Positions 17,698 to 59,002 of a DNA stretch of 64,000 nt are shown here, one piece after another. The notes below the pieces were generated by a model that had not been told where the DNA came from, searched no databases, and worked only from the letters and a program-made list of their open reading frames with translations. The translations under genes were made by a program, and so were the position numbers. This DNA is from an uncultured Pelagibacteraceae bacterium (GTDB taxonomy: Bacteria; Pseudomonadota; Alphaproteobacteria; Pelagibacterales; Pelagibacteraceae). Numbering within the stretch: position 1 is the stretch's first letter; every line of letters starts with the position of its first letter. The stretch lies in assembly GCA_902589315.1 (NCBI GenBank), contig CACISK010000003.1, forward strand, positions 121,460-185,459. Direction: 5' to 3'.

Positions 17698-17701
17698 TTT
17701 A

Positions 17702-18562: not shown

Positions 18563-18621
18563 TTAATTTTTATTTCCTATAATTATTGATGATATGATAA
18601 TATATTTTTCTAGAAATAAAA

Positions 18622-37964: not shown

Positions 37965-37967
37965 TTT

Positions 37968-40264: not shown

Positions 40265-40356
40265 TTTCTCAAATAGCCTAGTATTCCTATAACAAAATGG
40301 CCTGTTGACTCTGAATATCCTTTTTGTTGTACTTCGCTTATATAAATTAATTTATA

Positions 40357-40368
40357 TTAAACGTTTAA
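40357..40368. promoter_or_regulatory. 12-bp perfect palindrome TTAAACGTTTAA just 5' of the potD Shine-Dalgarno GGAGGA
   Basis: Read directly; 11 nt from the potD ATG. Confidence 0.45.
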
Positions 40369-40379
40369 ACGGAGGATAA

Positions 40380-41498: not shown

Positions 41499-41534
41499 AA
41501 GAGTATAAAAGACTAGAATAATATAATATATATG

Positions 41535-41560
41535 GGGCGACTTTTTTAAGTCGCCCTTTT
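41535..41560 (+). terminator. Intrinsic terminator between potD and potB
   Basis: GGGCGACTT-tttt-AAGTCGCCC hairpin followed by TTTTT; 6 nt before potB ATG. Confidence 0.92.
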
Positions 41561-41565
41561 TATTT

Positions 41566-42828
41566 ATGAGCAGTGAAACAAAACAAATACTTACAACTGA
41601 CGGAATTCCTTTAGAGATAAGCTTAAAAAAAGCTGAAAGGAAAAACAAAATTAAAGCATTTCTACTTGTTGCTCCATTATTACTTTTTCTGATTATCACT
41701 TATATTTTTCCAATCGGGGAAATGTTTACGAGAAGCATTGATGATAAAATGATTACAAACATGCTTCCAAAAACATTTAAGTCTATGGAAACATGGGATG
41801 GTAAAGAGCTTCCACCAGAAGAAGTATTCGCTTCATTCTTATCTGACTTTAAAATTCTTGTTGATAAAAAAGAACATGGAAAATTAGCTCAAAGACTTAA
41901 TAAAGAAAAAAATGGGTTCAACACCATTACAAAAAAATTATTCAGACAGGTAAAAAGAAATAAAATTGACGAGACACAAAGTATTAAAGAACAAATAATG
42001 AAAGTTCATAAGAGATGGAGAAATGTAGAATATTGGCAAGCAATTAAAAGAACTGCACCTCCTTACACTTCAGCTAAATATTTAAAAGCTATGGATATGT
42101 ATTTGAATGAAGATAACAAAATCACTCAGGTTAGTGAAGATAGAAGAATACATAGAATTTTATGGTTGAGAACCGTAGAGGTAGCTTTTTTTGTTACTGT
42201 ATTCTGTTTTCTAATGGGTTACCCCATAGCACATTTACTTGCAACACTCCCGATGAAGTACAGTAATTTGTTGATGATTTGCGTTCTACTTCCATTTTGG
42301 ACGTCACTATTAGTTAGAACAGCTAGCTGGATGATTTTACTTCAACAGCAAGGAGTAGTTAATGATTTCTTTGTAATGATTGGACTTGTGGCTGACGGTA
42401 ATAGGCCAGAAATGATGTACAATAAAGTTGGAACTTATGTTGCAATGACTCAAATTCTCTTACCGTTTATGGTTTTGCCACTTTACAGTGTGATGAAAAC
42501 TATCTCACCAAGTTTAATGAGAGCAGGTAAATCTCTTGGCGGAACACCTTTTGTGGCTTTTTGGAAAGTATATTTTCCATTAACAATACCAGGAATTGGT
42601 GCAGGGTGTCTTTTAGTTTTTATTTTAGCAATAGGATATTATATTACACCAGCATTAGTTGGGGGAGCATCAGGAACCTTAATAAGTAACCAAATTGCTT
42701 ATCATATGAAGACTACTTTAGATTGGAGTTTTGCTTCAGCGATGGGACTAATGTTATTAGGAGGAGTTTTGGTTATCTATTGGCTTTATAATAAATTAGT
42801 TGGAGTTGATAATATTAAGTTAGGTTAG
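41566..42828 (+). CDS. potB: Spermidine/putrescine-type ABC permease (PotB family), long form
   Basis: 420 aa; LLPFWTSLLVRTASWMILLQQQGVVNDF; ~110-aa charged insert after the first TM. Confidence 0.88.
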   Translation: MSSETKQILTTDGIPLEISLKKAERKNKIKAFLLVAPLLLFLIITYIFPIGEMFTRSIDDKMITNMLPKTFKSMETWDGKELPPEEVFASFLSDFKILVDKKEHGKLAQRLNKEKNGFNTITKKLFRQVKRNKIDETQSIKEQIMKVHKRWRNVEYWQAIKRTAPPYTSAKYLKAMDMYLNEDNKITQVSEDRRIHRILWLRTVEVAFFVTVFCFLMGYPIAHLLATLPMKYSNLLMICVLLPFWTSLLVRTASWMILLQQQGVVNDFFVMIGLVADGNRPEMMYNKVGTYVAMTQILLPFMVLPLYSVMKTISPSLMRAGKSLGGTPFVAFWKVYFPLTIPGIGAGCLLVFILAIGYYITPALVGGASGTLISNQIAYHMKTTLDWSFASAMGLMLLGGVLVIYWLYNKLVGVDNIKLG

Positions 42829-42829
42829 T

Positions 42830-43684
42830 ATGGCATTACCAAAGTATACAGAAACTAGATATAGAATTTGGCACTACTTTTACATTGCTATATGTACTTT
42901 TGTTTTTATTTTTTTAATAGCACCTTTGTTTGTAATATTTCCATTATCATTTAATGCAGAAGAGTTTCTTGTTTTTTCAGAAGGAATGAAGAATTTAGAC
43001 CCAGATGCTTTTTCATTAAGATGGTATAAAGATATGGTTTACGGTACAAAGAATCCTTGGGGTCTTGCTGCAAAAAATAGTTTTATTATTGCTATATTTG
43101 CAACTTTAGGGTCAGTAATTTTAGGTACGGTTGCTGCATTAGGATTGAGCAGCAGACACATGCCATTTAAAGGGATAATAATGGCAACTTTGATTTCACC
43201 TATGATAGTTCCACTTATTATATCTGGTGTTGCAATATTTTTCTTTATGGCAAAGGCAGGTTTAGCGGCAACTCATACAGGAATAGTTTTAGCTCATATA
43301 ATTTTGGGAACACCTTTCGTTGTAATAACAGTTACTGCAACGTTATCAGGTTTTGATCATAGTGTAACAAGAGCAGCAGCTAGTTTAGGTAGTAACCCAG
43401 TAAATACATTTATGAAAGTAACACTTCCGTTAATTTTACCTGGAGTAATTTCAGGAGGTTTGTTTGCTTTTGTAACCTCTTTTGATGAAGTTGTAGTCGT
43501 TTTATTTTTAGCTGGTCTTGAAAACACAACAATTCCAATTCAAATGTGGACAGGTTTAAGAGAACAATTAAGCCCGACAATTCTAGCAGTTGCTACATGT
43601 TTAATCGTTTTATCAACCCTAATATTGATTAGTGCAGAATTATTGAGGAGAAGATCAGAGCGTTTAAGAGGAATTAATAGATAA
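42830..43684 (+). CDS. potC: Spermidine/putrescine-type ABC permease (PotC family)
   Basis: VIFPLSFNAEEFLVF; FSLRWYKDM; AAASLGSNPVNTFMKVTLPLILPGVISGGLFAFVTSFDEVVV. Confidence 0.9.
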   Translation: MALPKYTETRYRIWHYFYIAICTFVFIFLIAPLFVIFPLSFNAEEFLVFSEGMKNLDPDAFSLRWYKDMVYGTKNPWGLAAKNSFIIAIFATLGSVILGTVAALGLSSRHMPFKGIIMATLISPMIVPLIISGVAIFFFMAKAGLAATHTGIVLAHIILGTPFVVITVTATLSGFDHSVTRAAASLGSNPVNTFMKVTLPLILPGVISGGLFAFVTSFDEVVVVLFLAGLENTTIPIQMWTGLREQLSPTILAVATCLIVLSTLILISAELLRRRSERLRGINR

Positions 43685-44809
43685 TTAATTTACCGACTCG
43701 ATTACTGTCGCAATACCCATGCCTAAACCGATACATTGAGTAGATAAAGCGTATTTCTTATTTTCACGTCTAAGCAAATCCGCAGCTTTGCCGGTAATTC
43801 TAGCTCCTGTTGCTCCTAGAGGATGACCAAGTGCTAAGGCTCCACCATCTAAATTAGCTTTCTTTTGATCGATACCAAGATCTTTTAAACATGCTATTGA
43901 TTGAGATGCGAAAGCTTCATTAATTTCTACAATATCAATATCATTAATTGATAAATTTGCTCTCTCTAATGCTTTTTTAGTTGCTCCTATAGGTCCAAGT
44001 CCCATCACATCAGGCTCACACCCTTTAACTCCAGTTGCAACAATTCTACCTAAAATCTCTAATCCATTTTCTTTTGCATAGCTTTCTTCACATATCAATG
44101 TTGCTGCTGCTCCATCGGTAAGAGGCGAGGATGTTGCTGCTGTAACAGTTCCTTCTTGATCAAATGCAAGTTTTAAACCATCTAAAGTTTCTTGATTGCT
44201 TTTTGGACGTATGTTTCCATCTTTTGTGCAGCCAGCGATTTCAACTATTTCATTTTTAAATTTACCATTAACTTCAGCTTCATTAGCTTTTTGATGACTT
44301 TGAATTGCAAACTCTTGTTGTTCAGTTCTTGAAATATTATATCTCTTGGCAACATTTTCAGCAGTTATACCCATTGAAAAATAAACATTTGGATTTTCTT
44401 TATCTGTGTAAGGATAGGGTATTGGTTCAAAGCCAGTTGTAACTCTAGTCATACTTTCAACACCTCCGCACACAAAAACTTTACCTGCGCCCATTGCTAT
44501 TTTACCGGCTGCAACATGAATAGCTTCCATAGATGAACCGCACCATCTATCAACAGTCATTCCTGATGTATGTATTTCCATTCCAGATAAAAATGTTGTG
44601 AGCTTCCCAATATTAAAACTCTGCTCTCCAACTTGGAAGGCACAACCAACAACAATATCTTCTATATCAGCAGGATTTACTTTTGTTTTAGACACAAGAT
44701 TTTTAACTACTTCTGCAAACATATTTACAGGCTTAACGTCAATTAATTCACCTTTTCTTGCCATTGTAAAAGGTGATCTTGAATATCCTGCTATAACTGC
44801 TTTTTTCAT
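43685..44809 (-). CDS. Acetyl-CoA acyltransferase/thiolase
   Basis: VDRWCGSSMEAI, NEAFASQ, GGALALGHPLGATGAR, CIGLGMG. Confidence 0.93.
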   Translation of the reverse strand: MKKAVIAGYSRSPFTMARKGELIDVKPVNMFAEVVKNLVSKTKVNPADIEDIVVGCAFQVGEQSFNIGKLTTFLSGMEIHTSGMTVDRWCGSSMEAIHVAAGKIAMGAGKVFVCGGVESMTRVTTGFEPIPYPYTDKENPNVYFSMGITAENVAKRYNISRTEQQEFAIQSHQKANEAEVNGKFKNEIVEIAGCTKDGNIRPKSNQETLDGLKLAFDQEGTVTAATSSPLTDGAAATLICEESYAKENGLEILGRIVATGVKGCEPDVMGLGPIGATKKALERANLSINDIDIVEINEAFASQSIACLKDLGIDQKKANLDGGALALGHPLGATGARITGKAADLLRRENKKYALSTQCIGLGMGIATVIESVN

Positions 44810-44832
44810 ATAAGTCTTATACTCACTAATTA

Positions 44833-45996
44833 TTATTTTGAAAATGGTAAAGAGGACACAATTCCTTTTCTTAATTTGTTATCTGGAGTGTGCACTAAAA
44901 CTTCTGACCCTATTTTACAAAATTCATTTAAAATCATGGATAAACCAATATTTTTTTTGAATTTTGGTGAATAAATCCCTGAGGTTATTTTACCAATTAA
45001 TTTCTTATCTTTTGAATAAAGCGGAAAAGGAATTGAACATGGAGGACAATCTACACCATCAAATAATACTCCTTTTAATTTTTGTTTTACACCTTGTTTC
45101 TTAATTTTCTTTAAAGCATTTTTTCCAATGAAATCATGATCGCTCTCGTAATTACAATATTTTTCTAAGTTACATTCAATTGGATTGTTTTCTTTTGTAA
45201 AATCATTTCCATAAGACATTAATCCCGCTTCTATTCTGTCAATTAAATTCGGGCATCCTGGAGCAATATTAAATTCTTTGCCTGCTTTCCATATTATATC
45301 CCAAATTTTTTCTCCCATTTCATTTTTGTCGAAGTAATCTTCAAAGCATTTAAAATAAATTTCAAATCCATCTTGTTTGCTATATCCCGATCTTGCAATA
45401 ACCTGTTTTGTTCCCAAGAAATCAAATATTCTAAAATTAAAAAATTTTAATTTTCTAATATCTTCTCCAAATATTGATGCCATCAAATCTTCAGACTTTG
45501 GACCTTGTACTGCAAGAGGATATACATCCGGTTCTGTTATATTTACATTCAAATTTAAACCAACTGCAATACCTTTTGCCCATAGCAATACATCTGAGTC
45601 TGCTATAGAAATCCAAAACATATCGTCATCTAATTTTAACAATACTGGATCATTTATCATTCCAGCATTTTCATCAATCAGAGGAATATAAAAACATTTT
45701 CCAGTTTCCATATTTTTTAATGATCTTGGTGTCATTTTTTGAACTAATAAGCTCGCATCTGGACCCGATATCTGAACTTGTCTTTGACAAGAAACATCCC
45801 ATAATTGAACATGTTCATTTAAATGCCAATAATCATCTTCAACAGATTTTTGAAATCTTTTTGGTAAAAGCATATGATTTACAACAGTAAAATCAGTTAC
45901 ACCACACTCTTCAACTCTCTTGGTGTAAGGAGTTCTTCTTATTCTCCTAGACATATTTAGTTTTGTGCTAATTTTGCTTTGTATCAATGAAGCCAT
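44833..45996 (-). CDS. GcvT-fold THF-dependent methyltransferase resembling DMSP demethylase DmdA
   Basis: MSRRIRRTPYTKRVEECGVTDFTVVNHMLLP, EDDYWHLNEHVQLWDVSCQRQVQISGPDA, PLAVQGPKSEDLM; similar to recalled SAR11 DmdA. Confidence 0.72.
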   Translation of the reverse strand: MASLIQSKISTKLNMSRRIRRTPYTKRVEECGVTDFTVVNHMLLPKRFQKSVEDDYWHLNEHVQLWDVSCQRQVQISGPDASLLVQKMTPRSLKNMETGKCFYIPLIDENAGMINDPVLLKLDDDMFWISIADSDVLLWAKGIAVGLNLNVNITEPDVYPLAVQGPKSEDLMASIFGEDIRKLKFFNFRIFDFLGTKQVIARSGYSKQDGFEIYFKCFEDYFDKNEMGEKIWDIIWKAGKEFNIAPGCPNLIDRIEAGLMSYGNDFTKENNPIECNLEKYCNYESDHDFIGKNALKKIKKQGVKQKLKGVLFDGVDCPPCSIPFPLYSKDKKLIGKITSGIYSPKFKKNIGLSMILNEFCKIGSEVLVHTPDNKLRKGIVSSLPFSK

Positions 45997-45999
45997 ATA

Positions 46000-46335
46000 T
46001 TATTTAGACCACCATACTGTATAGCTGTTAGGAGAAATTATTATTGGCAAATGATAATTTTTTTTATTATCAGTCATTTTAAATTTTATAACTATTTCAC
46101 CCACAATTTTTTTCTTTTTAAAGTATCTTTTAATATCACAAATCATTTCATAATCGCATTTACAATCTTTTTTGTTAAGATTGAATTGCTGATTAATTCT
46201 ACCATTTCCATCCGTCTTTGTATTCAAAAAAAGCTTTTTTAATTTTGAGGTTTGTATTTGATAAATCTTTACTTTGACATTACTTGCATGAGTTCCATCA
46301 GAACCATTCAATAAATGTGAGCTAAATTTTGCCAT
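46000..46335 (-). CDS. Transthyretin-like / 5-hydroxyisourate hydrolase-like protein
   Basis: SSHLLNGSDGTHASNVKVKIYQ, DGNGRINQ, YHLPIIISPNSYTVWWSK; 111 aa. Confidence 0.78.
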   Translation of the reverse strand: MAKFSSHLLNGSDGTHASNVKVKIYQIQTSKLKKLFLNTKTDGNGRINQQFNLNKKDCKCDYEMICDIKRYFKKKKIVGEIVIKFKMTDNKKNYHLPIIISPNSYTVWWSK

Positions 46336-46336
46336 T

Positions 46337-48076
46337 TTACTCTATTGATGATTTTTCTCTCTTGCTGGCCACAGCAGCAACAATTGGACTTAATACTGGT
46401 TTAGCTTTTACGTTTACACAAGCAGTTTTACCGCTTGTAATAGCTCTTTTTAGTGCTGGACCCAGTTCTTCTCTTTTCGTTACTAATTCTCCATGACCCC
46501 CAAAGCCTTCAAATATACTGTGGAAAGGTATATCTCTAAAGTCTGTTGCAACTCTTTTTCCGCTTTCAAATAATCTCTCTTGTTGTTGCCCAATTGATGC
46601 TAAGCCACCATTATTGTCAATAACAACAACGATTGGTTTCTTTTCAAAAAATGCAGTTTCTATAGACATGCCTCCAGATAAAAAAGCACCATCTCCACTA
46701 ATTAAAATTACATTCGATTTAGGGTTATTATTTTTTGCAGATAATGCAAATGATACACCGACACCCAGCATACTAAATGTGCCTGGATGTAAAATTCCAC
46801 CCAATTTTTTTCCTTGAGCTCCTGCTAAATTTATTGCGATCTCCGACCAGAAATGAGTATTTCCTCCATCAATTATAAGCCAATCTTTCTCATCCATTAC
46901 GTCTTGAACGTCTAACGCTAATTGCAGTGGATGAATTTTTCCACCATTTTTTTTTGCTTTATCAGCTTCAATCTTTAATTCATTTAAAGATTTATCTACC
47001 CAATCTTTCTTTTTATTTTTATTATCTTGAAACCAACTATTTCCTAAATTCCATTTATTATTTTTCTTTAAATTACATAGAGTATCCAAAAATACTCCTG
47101 GGTCACATAAAAGGTTATGATCAGCAGCTCTATTAAATTCAATTTCTTCATGGGAACCGTTAATACAAACTAAAGTTGTTGTTTTAGGAATGAAAGGAGG
47201 GTTACCAAAATTCATTTGGTTATCTAATCTTGCACCAATCATCAAAACTAAGTCTGAATTATGTAATGCAAATTCCGAGGGTGGATATTGGTGAATATCT
47301 GCTAAACCCATGTATGCATTTGCCTCTTCTCCTAAAAGTTTTTGATGGTAAGGCACATTAAAAACTGGAATATTTAAACTTTCACCAGCAGTCTCTAAAT
47401 TTTTTTCTGAGTTTGACCACCAAACACCGTGTCCTCCAATTATGACAGGTTTTTTTGCATTACATGCTAACTCAAGTATTTTTGATAGAGCATTTGGATC
47501 TGGCCATGCCTTAGCAACTGGCTTTGCTTTATGTGAAAATGGTCTTTCTTCAAACCCAACATTTTCTTCAAATGAAGAAAACATTATATCTACTGGCAAA
47601 CTTAGATGAACAGCTCCAGGATATCCATTCGTTGCAATTCTGTAAGCTTTATCAACAAATTCTCTAATTCTTGTTCCATCTGTAATGCTTGCACTATATT
47701 TTGTAAGAGGAGCAGCTATTGAAACATCATCAATTTCTTTAAAGCCACCTGACCCTTGTCTTTTTAAACTACTTGATCCGGTTATATAAATTATTGGTGT
47801 TCTTTCTCCCCATGCTTCCATCATGGATGGCACTGCATTTGCAAAACCTTCTGGCCCAACTAAACATACAGATGGTTTTCTTGTAATTCTTGTGTGTCCA
47901 TCTGCTAAGTGTCCAGCTATTTGTTCATGAGGACAATTGACTACATCAATTTGACATTCCATGAAACCTTCAATTGCAGGATTACAAAATCCACCAGATA
48001 GAGTAAAAACTTTATTAATACCTTTATCTTTTAATGCTCTTGCAATTAATGCTCCACCTCTTATTTTTTTTTCCAT
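46337..48076 (-). CDS. Thiamine diphosphate-dependent enzyme (acetolactate synthase / 2-hydroxyacyl-CoA lyase-like)
   Basis: CPHEQIAGHLADGHTRI (catalytic Glu), GPEGFANAVPSMMEAW, ISGDGAFLSGGMSIETAFFEKKPIVVVIDNN ThDP motif. Confidence 0.88.
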   Translation of the reverse strand: MEKKIRGGALIARALKDKGINKVFTLSGGFCNPAIEGFMECQIDVVNCPHEQIAGHLADGHTRITRKPSVCLVGPEGFANAVPSMMEAWGERTPIIYITGSSSLKRQGSGGFKEIDDVSIAAPLTKYSASITDGTRIREFVDKAYRIATNGYPGAVHLSLPVDIMFSSFEENVGFEERPFSHKAKPVAKAWPDPNALSKILELACNAKKPVIIGGHGVWWSNSEKNLETAGESLNIPVFNVPYHQKLLGEEANAYMGLADIHQYPPSEFALHNSDLVLMIGARLDNQMNFGNPPFIPKTTTLVCINGSHEEIEFNRAADHNLLCDPGVFLDTLCNLKKNNKWNLGNSWFQDNKNKKKDWVDKSLNELKIEADKAKKNGGKIHPLQLALDVQDVMDEKDWLIIDGGNTHFWSEIAINLAGAQGKKLGGILHPGTFSMLGVGVSFALSAKNNNPKSNVILISGDGAFLSGGMSIETAFFEKKPIVVVIDNNGGLASIGQQQERLFESGKRVATDFRDIPFHSIFEGFGGHGELVTKREELGPALKRAITSGKTACVNVKAKPVLSPIVAAVASKREKSSIE

Positions 48077-48077
48077 A

Positions 48078-49238
48078 TTAGTAAGTTGTATTCATAAATA
48101 GTTTCTGTTCAATTATATCAGAAGAAATTTCATTAATATCATTTAATCCAACCAAACCTAGCGTTGTGCTTGTTTCTTCTTTGATAATATCTACAATTCT
48201 TCTTAACCCGCTTGCTCCATCAGCTCCCATTGCATACATTACTGGTCTTCCAATCATTGAAAAATCTGCTCCTAAAGCTAATGATCTTACAATATCACTA
48301 CCACTTCTTATTCCACTATCAAATATAATTGGAAAATTATTTCCTACTGCTTCTCTAATAAAAGGTAAAATATTTATTGCTGCTGAGGCACTATCTAATT
48401 GTCTACCTCCGTGATTTGAAACTTGTATGGCATCAGCACCCATTTCTTTAATTTTAATTGCATCATCAGATGACATGACACCTTTTACAATTAATTTACC
48501 TTTCCATTTATTTCTTACTCTTTTTAGAGTTTCCCAATCTGTTTTTCCTCTACTTTCTTTTCTTTTAAAAATACCTTTTCCACTTTTTGAAGTTTCGTAA
48601 TTCATTGGCTTTGGTATTCCATTAAGCAATGTAGATATTGACCAAACTGGATGAGTTGCAAAATCAAAAAATTGTTTAGGTCCAATTTTAAATGGATATG
48701 AAAATCCATTTTTATCATCTCTAGTTCTCCTAGATAAAACTGGAACATCAACAGTAAGTATAGCAACTTCATAACCAGTTTTTTCTGCTCTATCGAGCAA
48801 TTCCATAACAAAAGCTTCATCCTGAAAAATATAAAGTTGAAGCCATGAATGACCTTCAGAAAGCTCATACATTTTTTCTAAGGTTGTTGTTGAAGCCATC
48901 GATACGCAGGTTGGTATGTTATTTCTTGCACTCTCTTTTGCCAACATAGAATCTGCACCTGGCCATGAAAGATTTGTCATACCCATTGGGGCAAATCCAA
49001 AAGGATAGTTATAGTTAAATCCAAGAATATTTTTTTTTAGTTTTCTTTCCTCTACATTTCTTAGAACTCTTGGCTCAAGACGTATTTGATCTAAAGCAAA
49101 ACTATTAATTTCTGATAATTTTTCATCTCCTGATGCGCCATCAATAAAATCATAAACTAGCTTTGGTAATCTTTTCTTTGATAGTTTTTTTGCGTCTTCA
49201 ATGCTAAAAATTTTATTACTGGCTTTAATATTATCCAT
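48078..49238 (-). CDS. FMN-dependent alpha-hydroxy acid oxidase/dehydrogenase (LldD family)
   Basis: GFAPMGMTNLSWPGAD, IFDSGIRSGSDIVRSLALGADFSMIGRPV, QVSNHGGRQLDSA. Confidence 0.92.
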   Translation of the reverse strand: MDNIKASNKIFSIEDAKKLSKKRLPKLVYDFIDGASGDEKLSEINSFALDQIRLEPRVLRNVEERKLKKNILGFNYNYPFGFAPMGMTNLSWPGADSMLAKESARNNIPTCVSMASTTTLEKMYELSEGHSWLQLYIFQDEAFVMELLDRAEKTGYEVAILTVDVPVLSRRTRDDKNGFSYPFKIGPKQFFDFATHPVWSISTLLNGIPKPMNYETSKSGKGIFKRKESRGKTDWETLKRVRNKWKGKLIVKGVMSSDDAIKIKEMGADAIQVSNHGGRQLDSASAAINILPFIREAVGNNFPIIFDSGIRSGSDIVRSLALGADFSMIGRPVMYAMGADGASGLRRIVDIIKEETSTTLGLVGLNDINEISSDIIEQKLFMNTTY

Positions 49239-49926
49239 TTAATTTCTTTATATAAGTTTTTAAACTAATCTTATCATGTTTAGTCACATAATAAGCATCA
49301 TGATTAATTCTCGAAGAATAAACCTCTGAAGGAACTCCGTCAATAAAAAGCACAGCTACACCATCATCAATAGCTATTCCATCTGGCAAATTTCCATCTT
49401 TAATTTCTGAAATAAATTGTTGAAGTCGATTATTATCTGACGAATGAGGTGTGCAACTTCCATCTAAAAAATTTATTCCTTTTAAAGGACTTAGCTCTTC
49501 ATTGACTGAGTCTGACAGTATCCAATCAAACCAACAGACAGCACCTGCACTTATTCCACTCAGAATTATTCCTTTTTCATATGCATCTTTAAATACTTTG
49601 ATAAGATCATATCTCTTCCAAATATTAATCATTTCAGAGGTATTGCCACCCCCTACATAAATTATATCTTTGCTTAACATCCATTCATTAAAACCTTCCA
49701 CACTTGAACAGAGATTAAAATGAGATAATTTAAATTTTTGTGATTTAAATCTTTTATAAAAAAGATCAGTCTTTTCTTGATTATCATTGCTAGCTGTAGG
49801 TAAAAAACCGATATTGATATTTGATTTATTAACTTGATTTAAAACATATTCATCCAAGTCTTCATCAGAAGAATGTGTAAATCCACCACCACCAATTGCT
49901 ATTATTATTTTTTTATTCCTGACCAC
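49231..49926 (-). CDS. Peptidase E (S51)-family protein
   Basis: IIAIGGGGFTHSSD; YVGGGNTSEMINIW; LSGISAGAVCWFDW (nucleophile Ser). Confidence 0.85.
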   Translation of the reverse strand: MVRNKKIIIAIGGGGFTHSSDEDLDEYVLNQVNKSNINIGFLPTASNDNQEKTDLFYKRFKSQKFKLSHFNLCSSVEGFNEWMLSKDIIYVGGGNTSEMINIWKRYDLIKVFKDAYEKGIILSGISAGAVCWFDWILSDSVNEELSPLKGINFLDGSCTPHSSDNNRLQQFISEIKDGNLPDGIAIDDGVAVLFIDGVPSEVYSSRINHDAYYVTKHDKISLKTYIKKLNG

Positions 49927-51128
49927 GGAGAAGGACCTGTTGGAATATCGATTTTTAGACCTCTTACAATTTCATTTTTAAAGTCATACATTGGCAAGGT
50001 GCATATTTCACCTTTATGAATTTTATTATCACTACAATTTACGTCCACTATTAATCCAGGTTTATGTTTTGTAGAATTCATTAAAACTATTCCAACACCA
50101 CATTTTTGAAAAGGCGACCAAGTACTTGATGTAATTTTTCCAATTATTTCATTATTGAATTTTATGTAAGTTCCTTTTAAACCTGTTCCATTTTCTACCC
50201 GTATTCCCCAACATCTTTTTTCTTTATCAGCAGTCATCAATGCCGCTTTTCCAATAAAATAATTTTTTTTTAAATCGACATATTTACCTAAACCAACATC
50301 ATATGGATTTGTTTCATGATTAAAGTCTTGTCCAGCTGATAATAATCCAGATTCTATTCTTTTACATCTGAAACCAGGGGTACCTGTGAGTATCATTCCC
50401 ATTTTTTTTCCTTCTTCAAGAATGTAATCTCCAACTTTTTCAGTATTATTATTTTTTCTAAAATAAATTTCCCAACCAAGTTCATTACTAAATCCTGATC
50501 TACTTATGATTACTTTTTCATTTAGTATAGTAACTTCTTTCCAATCAAAATATTTCCAATTATCAGGAAAAGTCTCTTTACTTAAAACTTTTAAAAGATC
50601 CATAGATTTTGGCCCCTGAATTTGACTAACCCAAACATCTGGGTCAGAAATTTTTACATTAAGATTATCAGTGTGAGCTTTGTACCATGAAAAAAGATCT
50701 CCATCAGCTTGAACAAACCAAAATTTATTTTCTTCAAGTCTTAGCAAAACTCCATCTGTCAGCATACCTCCATCATTGTAACAAGCAAATTGGTATGAGC
50801 ATCTTCCTACTTTTACTTTTGAGATATCTCTTGTGAATATTTTTTGTAAAAGTTTTTCTGCATCAGGACCAGATATTTCATATGGATGTTCACCAGTATG
50901 ACGAAAAATTACCTCTTGTCTTACTTTCCAATACATTTCATCAGCAGTAGCATGTGAAAGTACTTCTGGATTTAATCTTCCTGCATAAAATGAATACTCA
51001 GGATCATAGGGAAGTTCTTGATATGCTAGAGGATGTATCCCGACAGTTCGCGCAAGCTCAACAACTTTATTATCATTGGATTTTAAAGGTTTTACAGAAA
51101 ATCTGACTTTGTTTAATTCGTTTTGCAT
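49905..51128 (-). CDS. GcvT-fold aminomethyltransferase-like protein
   Basis: ISGPDAEKLLQKIFTRDISKVKVGRCSYQFAC, QIQGPKSMDLL, SRSGFSNELGWEIYF, FIGKAAL. Confidence 0.83.
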   Translation of the reverse strand: MQNELNKVRFSVKPLKSNDNKVVELARTVGIHPLAYQELPYDPEYSFYAGRLNPEVLSHATADEMYWKVRQEVIFRHTGEHPYEISGPDAEKLLQKIFTRDISKVKVGRCSYQFACYNDGGMLTDGVLLRLEENKFWFVQADGDLFSWYKAHTDNLNVKISDPDVWVSQIQGPKSMDLLKVLSKETFPDNWKYFDWKEVTILNEKVIISRSGFSNELGWEIYFRKNNNTEKVGDYILEEGKKMGMILTGTPGFRCKRIESGLLSAGQDFNHETNPYDVGLGKYVDLKKNYFIGKAALMTADKEKRCWGIRVENGTGLKGTYIKFNNEIIGKITSSTWSPFQKCGVGIVLMNSTKHKPGLIVDVNCSDNKIHKGEICTLPMYDFKNEIVRGLKIDIPTGPSPWSGIKK

Positions 51129-51269: not shown

Positions 51270-52757
51270 ATGAAATACATACTTAAAGTTTTTTCAGCGA
51301 CTTTTATGTCACTGATATTATCTTTTTCTATTGCCAATGCATCAAGTGGAGTATTTAAAGTATCACATGATCTTGGATTTGGAAAAGATACTAACTTAGA
51401 TGCCATAACAAAAGGGCGTTTATTTCAAGTTGTCATCAAAACACAAAATAGATTAGTAAGACCTGATATGAACGGTGTTCCATCACCTTCATTATCAACA
51501 GATTGGAGCGCTAATTCTGATGCAACTGAATGGACATTTAATTTAAGAAAAGGAATATATTTTCATGATGGATCAGCATTTGATGCTCCAGATGTAAAAT
51601 ATTCTCTAATGAGAGCTAAAGATCCTGATATCGGATCTCCAGTTAGAAAAAGTTTAAATGTAGTTGAAGATATTGAGGTAGTTGATCAGCATACAGTTAA
51701 AATGAAGTTATCAACTTCATTTGCTGACTTTCCGTTATTATTAACTGACTACAGATTAAGAATGATACCTGAAGGATCAGGAGATACTATAGGACAAACC
51801 GGAGTTGGTACTGGACCATTCATGGTTGATAAATTTGATCCAGAAGGAACTACAATTCTAAAAGCTAACCCAGAATATTGGGAAGGTGCACCAGGAGTTG
51901 CAGAAGTTCATGTCATTGCGATCCCAGATGCTCAAGCAAGAATTCAAGCTCTTTTAACTGGTCAAATTGATATGAATAGATATGTACCTTTCAATCAAAA
52001 AAAGATATTTGACAGTAATTCTAAATTTACAACAACTGTAATTCCAACTGGAAACTGGAGAGGTGTGGTTATGAGAACTGATACTGCTCCATTCGATAAT
52101 CCTAAAGTAAGAAAAGCTTTTAGGTTAGCAGTTGATAGACAAGAACTTGTAGACTTAGTGATGGGTGGTGCAGCAACTGTATCTTGTGATACACCTGTAA
52201 TGCCTTCTGATCAATATCGTTTACAAATGGATTGTCCTCAAAATATCAGTAAAGCAAAAAATTTACTAAGAGAAGCAGGATTTCCAAATGGAATTGAATT
52301 GACTGTTTACCCAGCGACTTTAGAACCAACTTGGCCTACGATTGCAGAAGTTGTTCAGCAACAAGTTGCAAAAGCAGGAATTAAAGTTAATATTGAGATG
52401 GTACCATCTAAAGGTTATTGGAATGAAGTCTGGATGAAAAAGCCAGTTTCAATGACACGTTGGAACCAAAGACCAGCAGACACAATCTTACATGAAGCAT
52501 ATCATAGTGGAGCAAAATGGAATGAGTCTTATTTCAAAAATGCTGACTTTGATAAAAATTTAGCTGATGCTAGAAGTGAGTTGGATTTCAATAAAAGAAA
52601 AAAAGCATATCAAAATGCTCAAATGACTTTATGGGAACAAAGTGGAACAATGATCCCATACCACGTATCTAGACTAGTAGTAACTTCATCAAAAGTTAAA
52701 AACCTTGATGCTGTAGATCACTTTTCTATACAGTGGCACAAAGTTAAAGTTGACTAA
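51270..52757 (+). CDS. Oligopeptide/dipeptide-type ABC transporter substrate-binding protein (SBP family 5)
   Basis: Signal peptide; TDWSANSDATEWTFNLRKGIYFHDGSAFDAPDVKYSL; followed by DppBC/DF-like genes. Confidence 0.93.
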   Translation: MKYILKVFSATFMSLILSFSIANASSGVFKVSHDLGFGKDTNLDAITKGRLFQVVIKTQNRLVRPDMNGVPSPSLSTDWSANSDATEWTFNLRKGIYFHDGSAFDAPDVKYSLMRAKDPDIGSPVRKSLNVVEDIEVVDQHTVKMKLSTSFADFPLLLTDYRLRMIPEGSGDTIGQTGVGTGPFMVDKFDPEGTTILKANPEYWEGAPGVAEVHVIAIPDAQARIQALLTGQIDMNRYVPFNQKKIFDSNSKFTTTVIPTGNWRGVVMRTDTAPFDNPKVRKAFRLAVDRQELVDLVMGGAATVSCDTPVMPSDQYRLQMDCPQNISKAKNLLREAGFPNGIELTVYPATLEPTWPTIAEVVQQQVAKAGIKVNIEMVPSKGYWNEVWMKKPVSMTRWNQRPADTILHEAYHSGAKWNESYFKNADFDKNLADARSELDFNKRKKAYQNAQMTLWEQSGTMIPYHVSRLVVTSSKVKNLDAVDHFSIQWHKVKVD

Positions 52758-52769
52758 AAGTATTTAGAT

Positions 52770-52800
52770 AAAGGCCGCATATAAGCGGCCTTTATTTTAT
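52770..52800 (+). terminator. Intrinsic terminator between the SBP-5 gene and its permease genes
   Basis: AAAGGCCGC-atataa-GCGGCCTTT hairpin with T-rich tail. Confidence 0.92.
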
Positions 52801-52842
52801 TTCTATTTAATTTATTTTTGTTAAAAAGTTCTAGTTAATCTT

Positions 52843-53799
52843 ATGCTTTTATTAATTTTAAAAAGAATTGGACTAGGGCTTATCACTTTATTTATAGTTT
52901 CATTGATTACATTTGTAGGTGTTGAAGTTTTACCTGGGGATGCATGCACAACATATTTAGAAAGAGAAGCTTATGGAGCAGCTCTTGATGCTTGCATAAA
53001 AAGACTTGGTCTAGATGTTCCTGCTTATGAAAGATACTTAGACTGGGCATCAAATGTTATAAGAGGTGATTTTGGTTACTCTTTAAGTGGAGAAATGCCA
53101 ATTAATGAAGTACTAGGTCCAAGAGTTAAAAACTCTTTAGTTTTAGCCTCTGTTTCAATACTTATAGGAATTCCTTTAGCAATCGTATTAGGAATAATAA
53201 CTGCTCTTTGGAGAGATAAGCTCCCGGATATTATGATCTCTACTATCACAATTTTTTCAATGACTATTCCTGAGTTTATTAGTGCTACTTTGCTTATTTT
53301 AATTGTTGCAATTTGGCTTGGTTGGCTACCAGGCATTGTGATTATACCATCAGATGCAACTTTTTATGAATTACTCTCAAATATAATTTTACCTGTTGTT
53401 GCAATTTCAATGATTATGACTGCGCACATGGCAAGAATGGTACGTTCAAGTGTAATTCAAGTAATGGCTAGTGATTATGTACAAATGGCAATTTTAAAAG
53501 GTGTTCCATATTGGAAAATGGTATTTAAACATGTATTGCCAAATGCATTATTACCAGCAATAAATGTAGTAGCGTTAACAATTGCTTGGTTGTTAGGCGG
53601 TGTTGTTGTTACAGAAGTTGTCTTTAATTATCCGGGTTTAGGCAGATTGGTAATTGAGTCTATATCAAATAGAGATTTACCTGTTGTTCAAGCATTAGCA
53701 ATAATATTAGCATCTATCTATGTGGGAATAAATTTAATAGCAGATTTAATGACACTTATGCTTAATCCAAGATTAAAAAGTTTACAGATAAGAAAATAA
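52843..53799 (+). CDS. dppB: Dipeptide-type ABC permease (DppB family)
   Basis: LITFVGVEVLPGDAC; ARMVRSSVIQVMASDYVQMAILKG; VVTEVVFNYPGLG. Confidence 0.92.
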   Translation: MLLLILKRIGLGLITLFIVSLITFVGVEVLPGDACTTYLEREAYGAALDACIKRLGLDVPAYERYLDWASNVIRGDFGYSLSGEMPINEVLGPRVKNSLVLASVSILIGIPLAIVLGIITALWRDKLPDIMISTITIFSMTIPEFISATLLILIVAIWLGWLPGIVIIPSDATFYELLSNIILPVVAISMIMTAHMARMVRSSVIQVMASDYVQMAILKGVPYWKMVFKHVLPNALLPAINVVALTIAWLLGGVVVTEVVFNYPGLGRLVIESISNRDLPVVQALAIILASIYVGINLIADLMTLMLNPRLKSLQIRK

Positions 53800-53800
53800 T

Positions 53801-54694
53801 ATGGAGAGTAATTTAATTACAGAAAATAAACAAAAAAATAAGCTAGAAAAGGCTTTTGAGATTTTAAAAACTATGGCCTCCAAGCCTTCTGGATTAATTG
53901 GACTTACAATTGTTTTATTTCATGTAGTCTTAGCATTAATAAGCCCTTACATTGCACCATACGATTACAAAGCAATTAGCCCAAATACCATGTTACTTGC
54001 ACCTTCGGCAGAGCATTGGTTTGGAACAGATAGCTTGGGTAGAGATGTTTTCACAAGAACAATACTTGGAGGGAGAACAGCTCTTACTGTAACTTTCTTT
54101 GGATCACTTATAGCTCTTCTGTGGGGAGGATTACTTGGAATTTTTTGTGGTTTAGTTGGAGGTAAAATTGACGATGTTGTAATGAGAGTTGTTGATGCAT
54201 TTCTTTCTATTCCTTGGATACTTGCAATGCTATTAATTGTTTCTCTTTTAGGAACATCAACAGAGGTTTTAATTCCTGCACTAGGTTTTTTTTATGGTAA
54301 AGGAATAGTAAGAGTTGCTAGAGCTGCTACTCACGATGTTATTGCTAAAGACTTTATAATTTCAGCTAGAGCTCGAGGTCATAGCAATTTGTCTATTATA
54401 TGGAATGAAATTATTCCAAATGTTAGAGACGCTATATTAGTAGAAGGAGCAATGAGATGGTCTTGGATGTTATTAGGATTTAGCTCATTGTCATTTTTAG
54501 GTTTTGGTGTAAGTCCTCCAACACCCGATTGGGGCTTAATGATCTCCAATGCCAGAGGATTGATGTCGTTTGCATATTGGTCTGTAATTGCTCCGATAGT
54601 AGGATTAAGTTCATTAATAATTGGAATAAATTTAACGGCTGATGCATTTGCAAAAGCTTTAGGAATTGATCGTTCAACAAAGGCACCTGTTTAA
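53801..54694 (+). CDS. dppC: Dipeptide-type ABC permease (DppC family)
   Basis: HWFGTDSLGRDVFTRTILGGRTAL; ARARGHSNLSIIWNEIIPN; SFLGFGVSPPTPDWGLMI. Confidence 0.93.
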   Translation: MESNLITENKQKNKLEKAFEILKTMASKPSGLIGLTIVLFHVVLALISPYIAPYDYKAISPNTMLLAPSAEHWFGTDSLGRDVFTRTILGGRTALTVTFFGSLIALLWGGLLGIFCGLVGGKIDDVVMRVVDAFLSIPWILAMLLIVSLLGTSTEVLIPALGFFYGKGIVRVARAATHDVIAKDFIISARARGHSNLSIIWNEIIPNVRDAILVEGAMRWSWMLLGFSSLSFLGFGVSPPTPDWGLMISNARGLMSFAYWSVIAPIVGLSSLIIGINLTADAFAKALGIDRSTKAPV

Positions 54695-56722
54695 ATGAAT
54701 GAAATAATTGAAAGCGTTAAAAATTTATCAATTGGATTTAGCAGTCAGAAGGGCAAACAAATTTCAATACTCAGAAATGTTTCAACCAATATAAAAAAAG
54801 GAGAGACTGTAGGGATCGTGGGGGAGTCAGGTTCTGGAAAAAGCACATTAGCACTTGCTATGATGGGCTATATAAAACAAGGCTTATTTCCTCTTAAGGG
54901 TGAATGCCTCTTTAAATCTGAGGATTTATTGAAAATGAGCAGTAGACAGCTGGAAAAAATTAGAGGTAGAAAAATAGCTATGATACCTCAAAATGCAGGA
55001 CAAGCTTTAACACCGAATTTAAAAATTGGATACCAAATTGATGAAGCATTAAGATTACATACAGATCTAAAAAAAACAGAGAGAGATAAAAAAATTTCAG
55101 AGTTACTGAATAAAGTTAGACTTCCTTCACCTGAAACTATGGCTTTTCGTTATCCACACGAGCTTTCTGGAGGGCAGCAACAGAGAGTGGCCGTTGCAAT
55201 GGCATTGGCTGGCAAACCAGATTTACTTTTATTAGATGAACCAACAACTGGATTAGATGTTACAACACAAGCACATGTATTAGAACTATTAAGATTTATA
55301 GCAAAAGATACCGGAACATCTATGATCTATGTTAGTCATGACCTTGGAGCTATAGCACAAGTCAGTGATAGAATAGTTGTAATGTATGCGGGAGAAATTG
55401 TTTTAGAAGGACCAGCAAGAAAAATATTAAAAGAACCTATTCATCCTTATACTTATGGATTGTTAAAATCGATACCTAAACTTTCACTAGATGGACTTCC
55501 AGCTTCTATGCCAGGAAGCCAACCTCAACCTGGAAGCATAAATGAAGGTTGTAGTTTTTATGATAGATGTAACTTAGCAACTGATCATTGTAAAAAAAAT
55601 TCACCAGATCTAGAACATATTAAAGAATTAGATACAAAGGTAAGATGTTTCAATCATAAAGAATTAATAAACAAAAATAATAATTTACAAACTTCAATAA
55701 CAAAAAAATCAAATAATAGTGAAGCAATTGAAGTTTTAAAATTAAAGGATGTTTCAATAAGTTATGCAAAGCAGAAATTTTTTGATCAATTATTAAACAA
55801 AATCTCTGATCAAAACCCAACAGTTAAAGATATAAATATAGATATAAAAAAAGGAGAGACTATTGCCCTAGTTGGAGAATCTGGAAGTGGCAAGTCTACT
55901 ATCCTAAAATCAATTGCTGGGTTACTCAAAACAAAAGATGGTCAAATTAAATTTGAAAATGATCGTATATTATCTTCTGATTTAAAAATGAGAAATCCAA
56001 ATGATCTTCGAGCAATACAACTTATATTTCAAAATCCAGACGAGTCATTAAATCCCAACCACACAGTTGAGCAAATACTTTCTCAACCTTTAAAGTTGTA
56101 TTTTAATTTATCAGGAGAAGAATTAAAAAAAAATATTATCGATCTACTAAAAAAAGTTAGGTTAGGAAAGTTTTATATGTCAAGATACCCTAGACAATTA
56201 TCAGGTGGTGAGAAACAAAGAGTTGCAGTTGCAAGAGCATTTGCTGCTAAGCCGGATATAATTTTGTGCGATGAGGTTACATCAGCTTTAGATGTTTCGG
56301 TTCAAGCAGCTGTTTTAAACTTATTACAACAATTGAAAGAAGATCTAGGAACAACTTACGTATTTGTTTCTCATGATTTGGCTGTTGTTAGAGCAATTAG
56401 TGATAGAGTTGCAGTTTTATATCAAGGAAGATTATGTGAAATTGGTCCTTCTCAAAATGTCTACAAATTTCCATCACATCCTTATACCGAAGTATTATTA
56501 GGTGCTGTTTTGGAACCAGATCCAGATATAAAACCAAAATTAGTAGCCGAGGATATAGTAGAGGAAAAACCCCCTGAAAAAGGCTGTTCTTTTCAAGGAA
56601 GATGCCCCAGGAAAATAGGTGATATTTGTAATTCAGAGGTTCCACCATGGCAAATAGGTGAAAATGGTAACGCTATTAGATGTCATATTAATATTGAAGA
56701 ATTAGCAAGTTTACAGCAGTAG
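54695..56722 (+). CDS. Fused dipeptide-type ABC ATPase (DppD-DppF)
   Basis: 675 aa with two complete ATPase domains (GESGSGKSTLALAMM and GESGSGKSTILKSIAG; two LSGG motifs), each with the oligopeptide-ATPase C-terminal Cys motif (CSFYDRC, CSFQGRCP). Confidence 0.94.
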   Translation: MNEIIESVKNLSIGFSSQKGKQISILRNVSTNIKKGETVGIVGESGSGKSTLALAMMGYIKQGLFPLKGECLFKSEDLLKMSSRQLEKIRGRKIAMIPQNAGQALTPNLKIGYQIDEALRLHTDLKKTERDKKISELLNKVRLPSPETMAFRYPHELSGGQQQRVAVAMALAGKPDLLLLDEPTTGLDVTTQAHVLELLRFIAKDTGTSMIYVSHDLGAIAQVSDRIVVMYAGEIVLEGPARKILKEPIHPYTYGLLKSIPKLSLDGLPASMPGSQPQPGSINEGCSFYDRCNLATDHCKKNSPDLEHIKELDTKVRCFNHKELINKNNNLQTSITKKSNNSEAIEVLKLKDVSISYAKQKFFDQLLNKISDQNPTVKDINIDIKKGETIALVGESGSGKSTILKSIAGLLKTKDGQIKFENDRILSSDLKMRNPNDLRAIQLIFQNPDESLNPNHTVEQILSQPLKLYFNLSGEELKKNIIDLLKKVRLGKFYMSRYPRQLSGGEKQRVAVARAFAAKPDIILCDEVTSALDVSVQAAVLNLLQQLKEDLGTTYVFVSHDLAVVRAISDRVAVLYQGRLCEIGPSQNVYKFPSHPYTEVLLGAVLEPDPDIKPKLVAEDIVEEKPPEKGCSFQGRCPRKIGDICNSEVPPWQIGENGNAIRCHINIEELASLQQ

Positions 56723-56779: not shown

Positions 56780-59002
56780 ATGAAAATAAATAATGTTGTT
56801 GTAATTGGTTCTGGAACAATGGGCAGCGGTATAGCTGCACATTTGTGTAACGCAAATGTTCCTGTCACTTTGTTGGATTTAACTACAGAAATTAGTCAAA
56901 AGGCTAAAGAGAGAATAGGAAAATCTAGACCTCCTTTATTAATAGATAAATCAAAATTAGATAATATACATGTGGGAAACATTGAAGAAAACTTTGATGT
57001 AGTTTCGAATGCAGATTGGATTGTAGAAGCTGTTGTAGAAAGAATAGATATAAAACATAATATTTACGAAAAAATTTTTAAACATAGAAAAAAAGAGTCT
57101 GTTGTTTCATCTAATACCTCATCTATTCCAATAAGTGTTCTATCAGAAAAATTATCTGATCAAGACAAAAAGGATTTTTGCATAACTCACTTCTTTAATC
57201 CTGTTAGATACATGGATTTACTTGAAATAGTAAAAAGTAATGAAAGTGATTTAGATAAAGTTAAACTTTTAAAAGACTTTTGTGAAATAGACTTAGGTAA
57301 AGGTGCAATTATCTGTAACGACACTCCAGGATTTTTAGGTAATAGAATTGGAGTTTACGCAATGCAAATTGCAATGACCGAAGCAATTAATATGAAACTT
57401 AGTGTAGAAGAAGCTGATGCTGTATTTGGCAGACCAATGGGTATACCTAAAACTGGAGTATTTGGATTGTATGACCTAATTGGTATTGATTTAATGGCAG
57501 ATGTATTGAAAAGTTTTATTAAAGAATTACCTGAAAGTGATCCATTTCAACCTGTAGCAAGAGAAATGCCACTTGTAAAAAAATTAATAGAGACCGGATA
57601 TACTGGTCGAAAAGGAAAAGGTGGATTTTATAGAATGAATAAAGAGGGTGGTAAGAAAATTTTAGAGGCCATCAATCTTGAAACTGGGGAATATTCTCCT
57701 TCAAAAAAAATAGATATTAAATCTGAAAAAGTTGATTTAAAAAAATTAATTAATCGTGGAGATAAATATGGGGATTATGCTTGGTCAGTAATTTCTAAAA
57801 TAATAAAATATTCTTCTTCATTAGTTCCAGGTATTACAGATAAATTTAACGACATTGATGAAGCAATGAGACTTGGCTTCAATTGGTCTAGAGGGCCTTT
57901 TGAAATGTTAAAAGAAATTGGAGTAAATAATTTTTTTGAAAAAATTGATAATTTTGAAGGAAATAAATTTTTAGAAAATTTGTCAAAATCCAAAGATGAA
58001 AATTTTTATGGTGAAAGACAACAATATACTGAAATTGAAACTTTAGGAAAAATTAAACCAAGAGCCCTTAAACTTGATAAAAATAATTCTGCTGAAATTT
58101 ACAGATTTCCTGAATTTAACATTGTCGAATTTACAACTAAAGCAAACGCTTTGGATTATGACTCAATGGACTCTTTAAAAAACGCTACAGACAAACCATT
58201 GATAATTATTAATGAAAGTATGCAGTTTTCTGCTGGTGTTAATTTAACATATACTATGAATTTTGCAGATAAAGGTGACTTTAAATCAATAGAAAAATTT
58301 GTCGGTTATTTTCAAGAAACATGCAAACACTTAAAATACTCAAAATTTCCAGTAGTTTCAGCACCATCAGGTCTTACACTTGGAGGGGGTTTTGAAGTTT
58401 TAGTTCAAAGTAACTTTGTTGCTTCGCATACAAATATTGTAGTTGGATTAGTTGAAACATTGGTTGGTTTAGTTCCAGCTGGAGGAGGATGTAAAGAAAT
58501 GTTATGGAGATGGTCTCAAACAGACGAGGCAAAAAATGATCCAGATTTTGCACCTTTAAAAGTTTTTGATATCATTGGTTATGCAAAAACTGCAACATCT
58601 CCAGTAGAAGCTGAACCTCTAAAGTATTTAATCCCTGAAAATAAAAAAATTATGAGCAGAAATAGCTTATTAAACGAAGCTAGAAAAATTTTGGATCAAA
58701 ATAAAGAATTTACTCCTCCAAAAGAATGCACATTTAATTTATCTGGCAAATCTTTAAAAGACAAAATGGTTGGTATGTTAGAAAAACTGTATAACGATAA
58801 AATTATATTAGATCATGGAATGATGGTTGGAACAGAGCTAGCAAATGTTTTAAGTGGTGGTGATACAACTATAGATAAAACGCTTACAGAAGATCAGTTG
58901 TTAAAATTAGAGTTAGATGCTTTCATGAAATTAATCGAGACAAGTAAAACCCAAGATAGAATTAAACACACATTATCAACTGGAAAACCTCTATTTAACT
59001 AA
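56780..59002 (+). CDS. Fused 3-hydroxyacyl-CoA dehydrogenase (N-term) / enoyl-CoA hydratase (C-term), FadN-like order
   Basis: VVVIGSGTMGSGIAAHL at N-terminus; CNDTPGFLGNRIG; C-terminal LTLGGGFEVLVQSNFVASHTNIVVGLVETLVGLVPAGGGCKE crotonase motif. Confidence 0.88.
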   Translation: MKINNVVVIGSGTMGSGIAAHLCNANVPVTLLDLTTEISQKAKERIGKSRPPLLIDKSKLDNIHVGNIEENFDVVSNADWIVEAVVERIDIKHNIYEKIFKHRKKESVVSSNTSSIPISVLSEKLSDQDKKDFCITHFFNPVRYMDLLEIVKSNESDLDKVKLLKDFCEIDLGKGAIICNDTPGFLGNRIGVYAMQIAMTEAINMKLSVEEADAVFGRPMGIPKTGVFGLYDLIGIDLMADVLKSFIKELPESDPFQPVAREMPLVKKLIETGYTGRKGKGGFYRMNKEGGKKILEAINLETGEYSPSKKIDIKSEKVDLKKLINRGDKYGDYAWSVISKIIKYSSSLVPGITDKFNDIDEAMRLGFNWSRGPFEMLKEIGVNNFFEKIDNFEGNKFLENLSKSKDENFYGERQQYTEIETLGKIKPRALKLDKNNSAEIYRFPEFNIVEFTTKANALDYDSMDSLKNATDKPLIIINESMQFSAGVNLTYTMNFADKGDFKSIEKFVGYFQETCKHLKYSKFPVVSAPSGLTLGGGFEVLVQSNFVASHTNIVVGLVETLVGLVPAGGGCKEMLWRWSQTDEAKNDPDFAPLKVFDIIGYAKTATSPVEAEPLKYLIPENKKIMSRNSLLNEARKILDQNKEFTPPKECTFNLSGKSLKDKMVGMLEKLYNDKIILDHGMMVGTELANVLSGGDTTIDKTLTEDQLLKLELDAFMKLIETSKTQDRIKHTLSTGKPLFN

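Follow-up and report, generated by a model that had tools for sequence, protein, structure and literature searches.

A conserved gene cluster of marine Alphaproteobacteria that may encode a catabolic pathway for a methyl-onium compound

Demethylation of glycine betaine in marine bacteria uses the MttB-type methyltransferase MtgB together with the corrinoid protein MtgC (MtgBCD), and in SAR11 Bhmt, without MtgC (PMC12478193); the characterised members of the MttB superfamily act on quaternary amines (PMC8604678, PMC12155760). Regarding dimethylsulfoniopropionate (DMSP), the genes dmdABC were called across most SAR116 bacteria in a 2025 study (PMC12262181); in a 2021 study dmdA was limited to one SAR116 subclade (PMC8547437). 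Here, a seven-gene operon is described from an uncultured Pelagibacteraceae bacterium (GenBank assembly GCA_902589315.1, contig CACISK010000003.1, positions 121,460 to 185,459, a stretch of 64,000 nucleotides referred to as the window), whose genome (G000) is 1.18 Mb and 81% complete. From 5' to 3' the operon encodes a tetrahydrofolate (THF) methyltransferase (GcvT_A), a hydrolase of peptidase family S51, an LldD-family flavin mononucleotide (FMN) dehydrogenase, a thiamine diphosphate (ThDP) dependent enzyme, a paralogue of 5-hydroxyisourate (HIU) hydrolase (HIU-like), a second THF methyltransferase (GcvT_B) and a thiolase (Table 1). All of these protein families are known, while the combination and at least two of the clades (HIU-like and GcvT_B) are undescribed in the open-access literature searched, where no pathway with this gene set was found, in agreement with an earlier note made from the DNA sequence. 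The chances appear about even that a single catabolic pathway, acting on a small zwitterionic methyl-onium compound (either a quaternary ammonium or a dimethylsulfonium compound), is encoded by the operon.

The seven-gene block is a real unit and not a chance cluster, since its gene order and 1-nt junctions recur at approximately 80 loci and its core recurs in other families. Within the window, neighbouring genes overlap at the first two junctions (22 and 8 nt) and are separated by 1, 1, 3 and 23 nt at the following four, with the S51 gene starting at a GTG inside the 3' end of GcvT_A. The earlier note had described seven minus-strand genes with gaps of 23 nt or less, or overlaps, and assigned a family to each; all open reading frames were found at that place and on that strand, and every family scored above its Pfam gathering score. 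A consensus scan of the operon against shuffled sequence gave 35 promoter-like sites where 42 were expected and 4 terminator-like sites where 4 were expected, with no convincing internal promoter or terminator; neither kind of site is commoner than in shuffled sequence. A search against Rfam gave no match.

The ThDP protein was detected in 11 of 37 genomes of the same genus, with the gene order retained wherever the contig was long enough, and the same block is present on 80 named contigs, nearly all from marine single-cell genomes. The median gap is 1 nt both between LldD and the ThDP gene (79 loci) and between the ThDP gene and the HIU-like gene (78 loci). Outside the Pelagibacter group the core is found with ThDP proteins 66-82% identical in other alphaproteobacterial families: a class-wide sample of 385 genomes contained the ThDP enzyme in six (the host, one of family f142, three of f110 and one of f82), while no additional match came from a phylum-wide sample of 299 genomes, none above approximately 30% identity from plasmids and none at all from viral contigs. 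Family f110 is taken here to be SAR116, as its genome G273 is probably that of SAR116 strain IMCC1322; 23 of its 61 genomes passed the search threshold and 22 of these had a ThDP orthologue at least 70% identical. The earlier note had named lack of neighbourhood conservation as a finding that would refute it; the neighbourhood proved to be conserved. In one locus (L085:7270-8140) a join of the ThDP gene and GcvT_A looks like an assembly chimera.

The conserved core spans four families (Pelagibacter group, SAR116, f142 and f82), with an inner core of LldD-ThDP-(HIU-like)-GcvT_B that keeps its order and cluster ends that vary. In the Pelagibacter group the order is GcvT_A-S51-LldD-ThDP-HIU-GcvT_B-thiolase, divergent from a Dpp-type ATP-binding cassette (ABC) transporter and a 3-hydroxyacyl-CoA dehydrogenase fusion, and some loci gain a branched-chain aminotransferase or a tripartite ATP-independent periplasmic (TRAP) transporter. 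SAR116 loci contain, with varying completeness, a Dpp ABC or TRAP transporter, S51, an MttB-like gene, LysR, LldD, ThDP, HIU and GcvT_B, and in the loci examined no thiolase was found adjoining the module. In f142 the order is a homocysteine S-methyltransferase (HMT)-like gene, GcvT_A, LldD, ThDP, HIU, GcvT_B, OsmC and enoyl-CoA hydratase, while the f82 genome G452 has LysR, LldD, ThDP, HIU, GcvT_B and TRAP. In two further f82 genomes (G426, G448) the ThDP and HIU-like genes stand behind an L-asparaginase-family gene and in a third (G449) behind another gene, which identifies ThDP and HIU-like as the innermost pair; upstream of this pair an amidase-type gene, either S51 or asparaginase, is repeatedly found. 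GcvT_A and the thiolase are restricted to certain lineages, with OsmC and enoyl-CoA hydratase replacing the thiolase in one family, which modifies the earlier proposal of a pathway ending in thiolysis; in the Pelagibacter loci thiolase is the last gene.

Regarding the HIU-like protein, a profile built from operon members gave its clade 158-168 bits, compared with 82 for the highest-scoring HIU-hydrolase-family protein outside the clade, and the six genomes with high-scoring members among the 385 of the class are exactly the six that have the ThDP enzyme. The predicted model (pLDDT 90) has HIU hydrolases as its best PDB matches (TM 0.86 to 4q14), and the His7/Arg46/His95 triad is invariant in the alignments of operon members. 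Fold and triad are thus shared with the 5-hydroxyisourate hydrolases UraH and PucM, from which the HIU-like protein differs in the C-terminal tail, where every operon member has W[WYIL]S instead of YRGS, in an invariant His16 where the canonical enzyme has Pro, and in its lack of purine context. It scored 71.9 bits against TIGR02962, under the cut-off of 87.45, and a separate canonical copy is present in SAR116, some f82 genomes and some other hosts. The HIU-like protein is read as a diverged HIU-hydrolase paralogue with a new substrate and not as a typical HIU hydrolase, which refines the description transthyretin/HIU-hydrolase-like in the earlier note. In locus L101 (3076-3440) the HIU-like frame is broken near a homopolymer.

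Both GcvT-fold methyltransferases predicted earlier are present, but they are not equivalent, with GcvT_B probably belonging to the DmdA radiation and GcvT_A occupying a swappable slot. GcvT_B scored 534 bits against NF009133, the NCBI model of DMSP demethylase (cut-off 410), is approximately 46-49% identical to the P. ubique enzyme 3tfh and retains the THF-site residues; Roseobacter-type DmdA shares 50-55% identity with the SAR116 orthologue of GcvT_B. In a midpoint-rooted tree of 54 different sequences the operon clade is monophyletic (support 100/98) and joins Pelagibacter DmdA and Roseobacter-type DmdA at 90/80. At 3tfh position 32 all 24 operon rows have Val, where all DmdA and paralogues examined have Tyr; GcvT_B also differs from DmdA in standing in an operon without DMSP genes, with a canonical DmdA separately encoded in the host genome (G000:C4) and likewise in relatives. 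Trp197 of DmdA, reported to interact with DMSP (PMC7487153), corresponds by the position mapping made in this analysis to alignment position W171. At this position GcvT_B has Tyr, as do many Roseobacter-type DmdA, and the substitution was consequently rejected as proof of an identity other than DmdA. The AlphaFold model of GcvT_B (pLDDT 53) was too poor for use. In four SAR116 genomes (G273, G441, G463, G480) GcvT_B is the only protein above the NF009133 cut-off, which makes the 'dmdA' calls in these genomes suspect as judged from sequence comparison. A further DmdA-like clade of SAR116 (L171-L174) has Trp197 and scored 383-392 bits, under the same cut-off; the true DMSP demethylase of SAR116, or some other methyltransferase, may be among its members.

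The first methyltransferase slot is occupied by GcvT_A (203 bits against NF009133, under the cut-off), by an HMT-family protein immediately upstream of S51 in locus L093, or, in SAR116, by an MttB homologue. The three families are unrelated, but in each the characterised members remove methyl groups from onium compounds, and their exchange supports onium demethylation by analogy without proving it. In the SAR116 genomes a stand-alone corrinoid protein is encoded next to a conserved gene, while no match to the B12-binding_2 domain was found in the 81% complete host genome. The exchange resembles that of MttB-type/corrinoid and corrinoid-free methyltransferases in glycine betaine demethylation, but Pelagibacter mostly uses GcvT_A, LldD-ThDP-HIU-like follows, and the operon has no dimethylglycine or sarcosine dehydrogenase genes.

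LldD matches structures of (S)-mandelate dehydrogenase, has invariant His276, Arg279 and Lys252 in the alignment, and by eye has an extended loop resembling that of membrane-associated members. In the ThDP enzyme, Glu51 of the PHEQ motif and the GDG...NN motif are invariant over 16 orthologues (66-90% identity); its best structural matches are 2-hydroxyacyl-CoA lyase (HACL), 2-hydroxyacyl-CoA synthase (HACS), oxalyl-CoA decarboxylase (OXC) and benzaldehyde lyase, and no NCBIfam cut-off was reached among the matches listed. In S51, Ser126, His161 and the acidic region IDDG are conserved in 14 homologues. The adjoining FMN 2-hydroxy-acid dehydrogenase and ThDP enzyme, with their 1-nt junction, resemble MdlB and MdlC of mandelate degradation, although the ThDP enzyme is not closest to benzoylformate decarboxylase and that pathway has nothing corresponding to the demethylases, S51 or HIU-like. 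The sequence of L-2-hydroxy-acid oxidation and ThDP-dependent decarboxylation is also that of the sulfolactate/2,3-dihydroxypropane-1-sulfonate (DHPS) branch, which differs in having two small subunits, ComD and ComE, where this operon has a single ThDP chain of 579 aa; moreover, no HpsN-like gene is present. LldD is 47% identical to an oxidase beside ComDE, and its closest plasmid relatives lie in DHPS-type clusters by sulfopyruvate decarboxylase. In two such clusters on Roseobacter plasmids (L205:288-9125, L206:312-9122) the LldD-family oxidase adjoining ComDE is a candidate sulfolactate dehydrogenase. A cluster on the Ruegeria pomeroyi megaplasmid (L204:8932-19228) with LysR, an MttB-like gene, an aminotransferase, two large flavin adenine dinucleotide (FAD) oxidoreductases and a ThDP enzyme nearest to sulfoacetaldehyde acetyltransferase, under that cut-off, looks like another uncharacterised methylated-amine pathway. 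In one SAR116 genome, genes that by eye resemble those for 5-oxoprolinase subunits PxpABC adjoin LldD (L147:13327-15913).

The proposed pathway builds on protein families, catalytic residues, synteny, slot swaps and phylogeny, from which we infer the substrate class, the order of steps and the individual reactions. The substrate would be imported by the adjoining Dpp-type ABC transporter, or in other genomes by a TRAP transporter, and GcvT_A would move a methyl group from an onium centre to THF, a role that MttB-type and corrinoid proteins may take in SAR116 and HMT in other SAR11. GcvT_B, as a diverged DmdA, would strip a methyl group from a sulfonium or related onium centre, and the S51 hydrolase might open an amide- or peptide-like bond. 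The resulting L-2-hydroxy acid would be oxidised at the membrane by LldD to a 2-oxo acid, to be decarboxylated or cleaved by the ThDP enzyme together with HIU-like, which may open the ThDP product or a cyclised form of the substrate. CoA esters would finally be produced by thiolase, with the adjoining 3-hydroxyacyl-CoA dehydrogenase as its probable partner. The kinds of step suggested in the earlier note (folate-dependent demethylation, hydrolysis, 2-hydroxy-acid oxidation and ThDP-dependent C-C cleavage) are consistent with the families and their conserved catalytic residues.

A single pathway is favoured by the four-family core, the co-occurrence of HIU-like and ThDP, the slot swaps with their parallel in glycine betaine demethylation, the corrinoid protein of SAR116 with no B12-binding_2 match in G000, the GcvT_B clade and the S51 residues, and the LldD relatives beside sulfopyruvate decarboxylase on Roseobacter plasmids show the same oxidase-plus-decarboxylase logic. 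Several points weigh against it. Three f82 genomes (G426, G448, G449) keep ThDP and HIU-like with no local LldD or GcvT_B orthologue, and the absence of GcvT_B there implies that demethylation is separable from the core. MttB points to an N-methyl but GcvT_B to an S-methyl substrate. A DmdA-type enzyme would not be expected to demethylate a tertiary amine, so that two successive demethylations of one nitrogen would be awkward. We know of no precedent for the pairing of ThDP and HIU-like. Alternatively, GcvT_B could be a second DMSP demethylase forming methylmercaptopropionate (MMPA), with LldD, ThDP and HIU-like serving an unrelated co-regulated substrate. Its score above the NCBI cut-off, its nesting with proven DmdA types and its position as sole protein over that cut-off in four SAR116 genomes agree with this explanation, which is nevertheless unlikely given the canonical DmdA in G000 and its relatives, the constant Val32 where all other paralogues examined have Tyr, and the fixed association of GcvT_B with LldD-ThDP-HIU-like across several families, in an operon that lacks known DMSP genes. 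A methanethiol-oxidase-like gene lies beside an f82 cluster but, at 156 bits where the cut-off is 650, it is too weak to serve as proof of sulfur chemistry.

Another possible class of substrate is that of the dimethylsulfonio 2-hydroxy acids, for example 4-dimethylsulfonio-2-hydroxybutyrate (DMSHB), an intermediate in DMSP producers (PMC11306096), which GcvT_B would convert to 4-methylthio-2-hydroxybutyrate (MTHB), LldD to 4-methylthio-2-oxobutyrate (MTOB) and the ThDP enzyme to methional. The route fits a DmdA-clade member in which a residue has changed, together with enzymes that oxidise a 2-hydroxy acid and decarboxylate a 2-oxo acid, but it leaves S51, HIU-like, the thiolase and the first demethylase unaccounted for, and bacterial DMSHB catabolism was not found in the open-access literature. 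LldD enzymes take L-acids, whereas algal DMSHB is reportedly in the D form (Summers et al., 1998), and the route is considered improbable. There is a small chance that the substrate is instead a quaternary-ammonium betaine that includes an amide or a 2-hydroxy acid, and that GcvT_B has switched from sulfonium to ammonium; the quaternary amines on which the characterised MttB members mentioned above act, the gamma-butyrobetaine-dioxygenase-like genes near the L093 and L102 clusters, and OpuAC and BKACE at L093 point this way, but the dioxygenase neighbours occur in few loci and score under NCBIfam cut-offs, and the nearest kin of GcvT_B are sulfonium enzymes. If HIU-like were a genuine hydrolase of HIU or methyl-HIU, the operon could serve to degrade a methylated purine or ureide. 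This reading would account for the fold and catalytic triad but is very improbable: YRGS is lost in all members, several hosts have a separate canonical copy, and neither urate oxidase nor OHCU decarboxylase nor allantoinase was seen in the operon or among the Pfam/NCBIfam-annotated neighbours (roughly 26-63 kb). This pathway was rejected for the loss of YRGS and the lack of purine genes. Catabolism of mycosporine-like amino acids (MAA) was a further possibility raised by the chemistry, but neither a paper nor a gene in its support was found.

SAR11 and SAR116 are among the commonest surface-ocean bacteria, and the compounds that they consume shape how carbon and sulfur move through the sea. 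Regarding the methyl-onium pathway, it is tentatively suggested, at slightly less than even chances, that it is a new marine pathway for an unrecognised and probably abundant metabolite, that it sets a new HIU-hydrolase-fold enzyme beside a ThDP lyase, and that many SAR116 'dmdA' genes belong to it and not to DMSP demethylation. The comparison suggests that the NCBI equivalog model picks up another enzyme in SAR116, in which case estimates of DMSP demethylation that rely on dmdA would be biased, and the HIU-like clade would represent a new function on the transthyretin/HIU-hydrolase fold.

Table 1. Genes of the operon and the divergent flanking genes, with positions in the window.
Feature	Position	Strand	Basis
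GcvT_A, GcvT-fold THF methyltransferase, first operon gene	49905..51128	-	PF01571 143 bits
S51 peptidase E/cyanophycinase-like hydrolase	49231..49926	-	PF03575 122 bits, alignment
LldD-family FMN L-2-hydroxy-acid dehydrogenase	48078..49238	-	PF01070 394 bits, alignment
ThDP-dependent C-C lyase/decarboxylase-fold enzyme	46337..48076	-	three TPP domains (Pfam), alignment
HIU-like, HIU-hydrolase/transthyretin-fold paralogue	46000..46335	-	PF00576 72 bits, alignments, model
GcvT_B, THF methyltransferase, probably of the DmdA radiation	44833..45996	-	NF009133 534 bits, tree, residues
Thiolase, final operon gene in Pelagibacter loci	43685..44809	-	PF00108/PF02803, synteny
Dpp-type (SBP_bac_5) ABC transporter, divergent from the operon, likely importer	51270..56722	+	annotation, DppA identity, synteny
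3-Hydroxyacyl-CoA dehydrogenase/enoyl-CoA hydratase fusion	56780..59002	+	annotation, synteny

The unit extends to the adjoining Dpp-type ABC and/or TRAP transporter; DppA is 55-59% identical in SAR116, where Dpp ABC genes also adjoin most versions of the cluster. The fusion gene, found 3' of the Dpp operon in many Pelagibacter loci, has its crotonase domain at the C-terminus, the reverse of the usual FadB order, and is a possible partner of the thiolase. On the other side, an EutA-like (221 bits, cut-off 318) and an ectoine hydrolase DoeA/EutD-like gene (447 bits, cut-off 613) at 37224-39140 (plus strand) are followed by a Pot-type ABC transporter (39179-43684), and this group perhaps serves a cyclic-amidine or related substrate. 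PotABCD with the EutA/DoeA-like pair was rejected as pathway core, TRAP or other genes being present there in several loci. Genes of the HMT family are present at 31754-32737 (plus strand) and 34381-35313 (minus strand), with a beta-lactamase-fold gene (32739-33896) and an MsrA-like gene (33908-34363) nearby, giving this stretch a methyl- and sulfur-related theme. In locus L093, BKACE, OpuAC and gamma-butyrobetaine-dioxygenase-like genes flank the cluster (766-1653 and 17300-19627), and a dioxygenase-like gene is also present at L102:20719.

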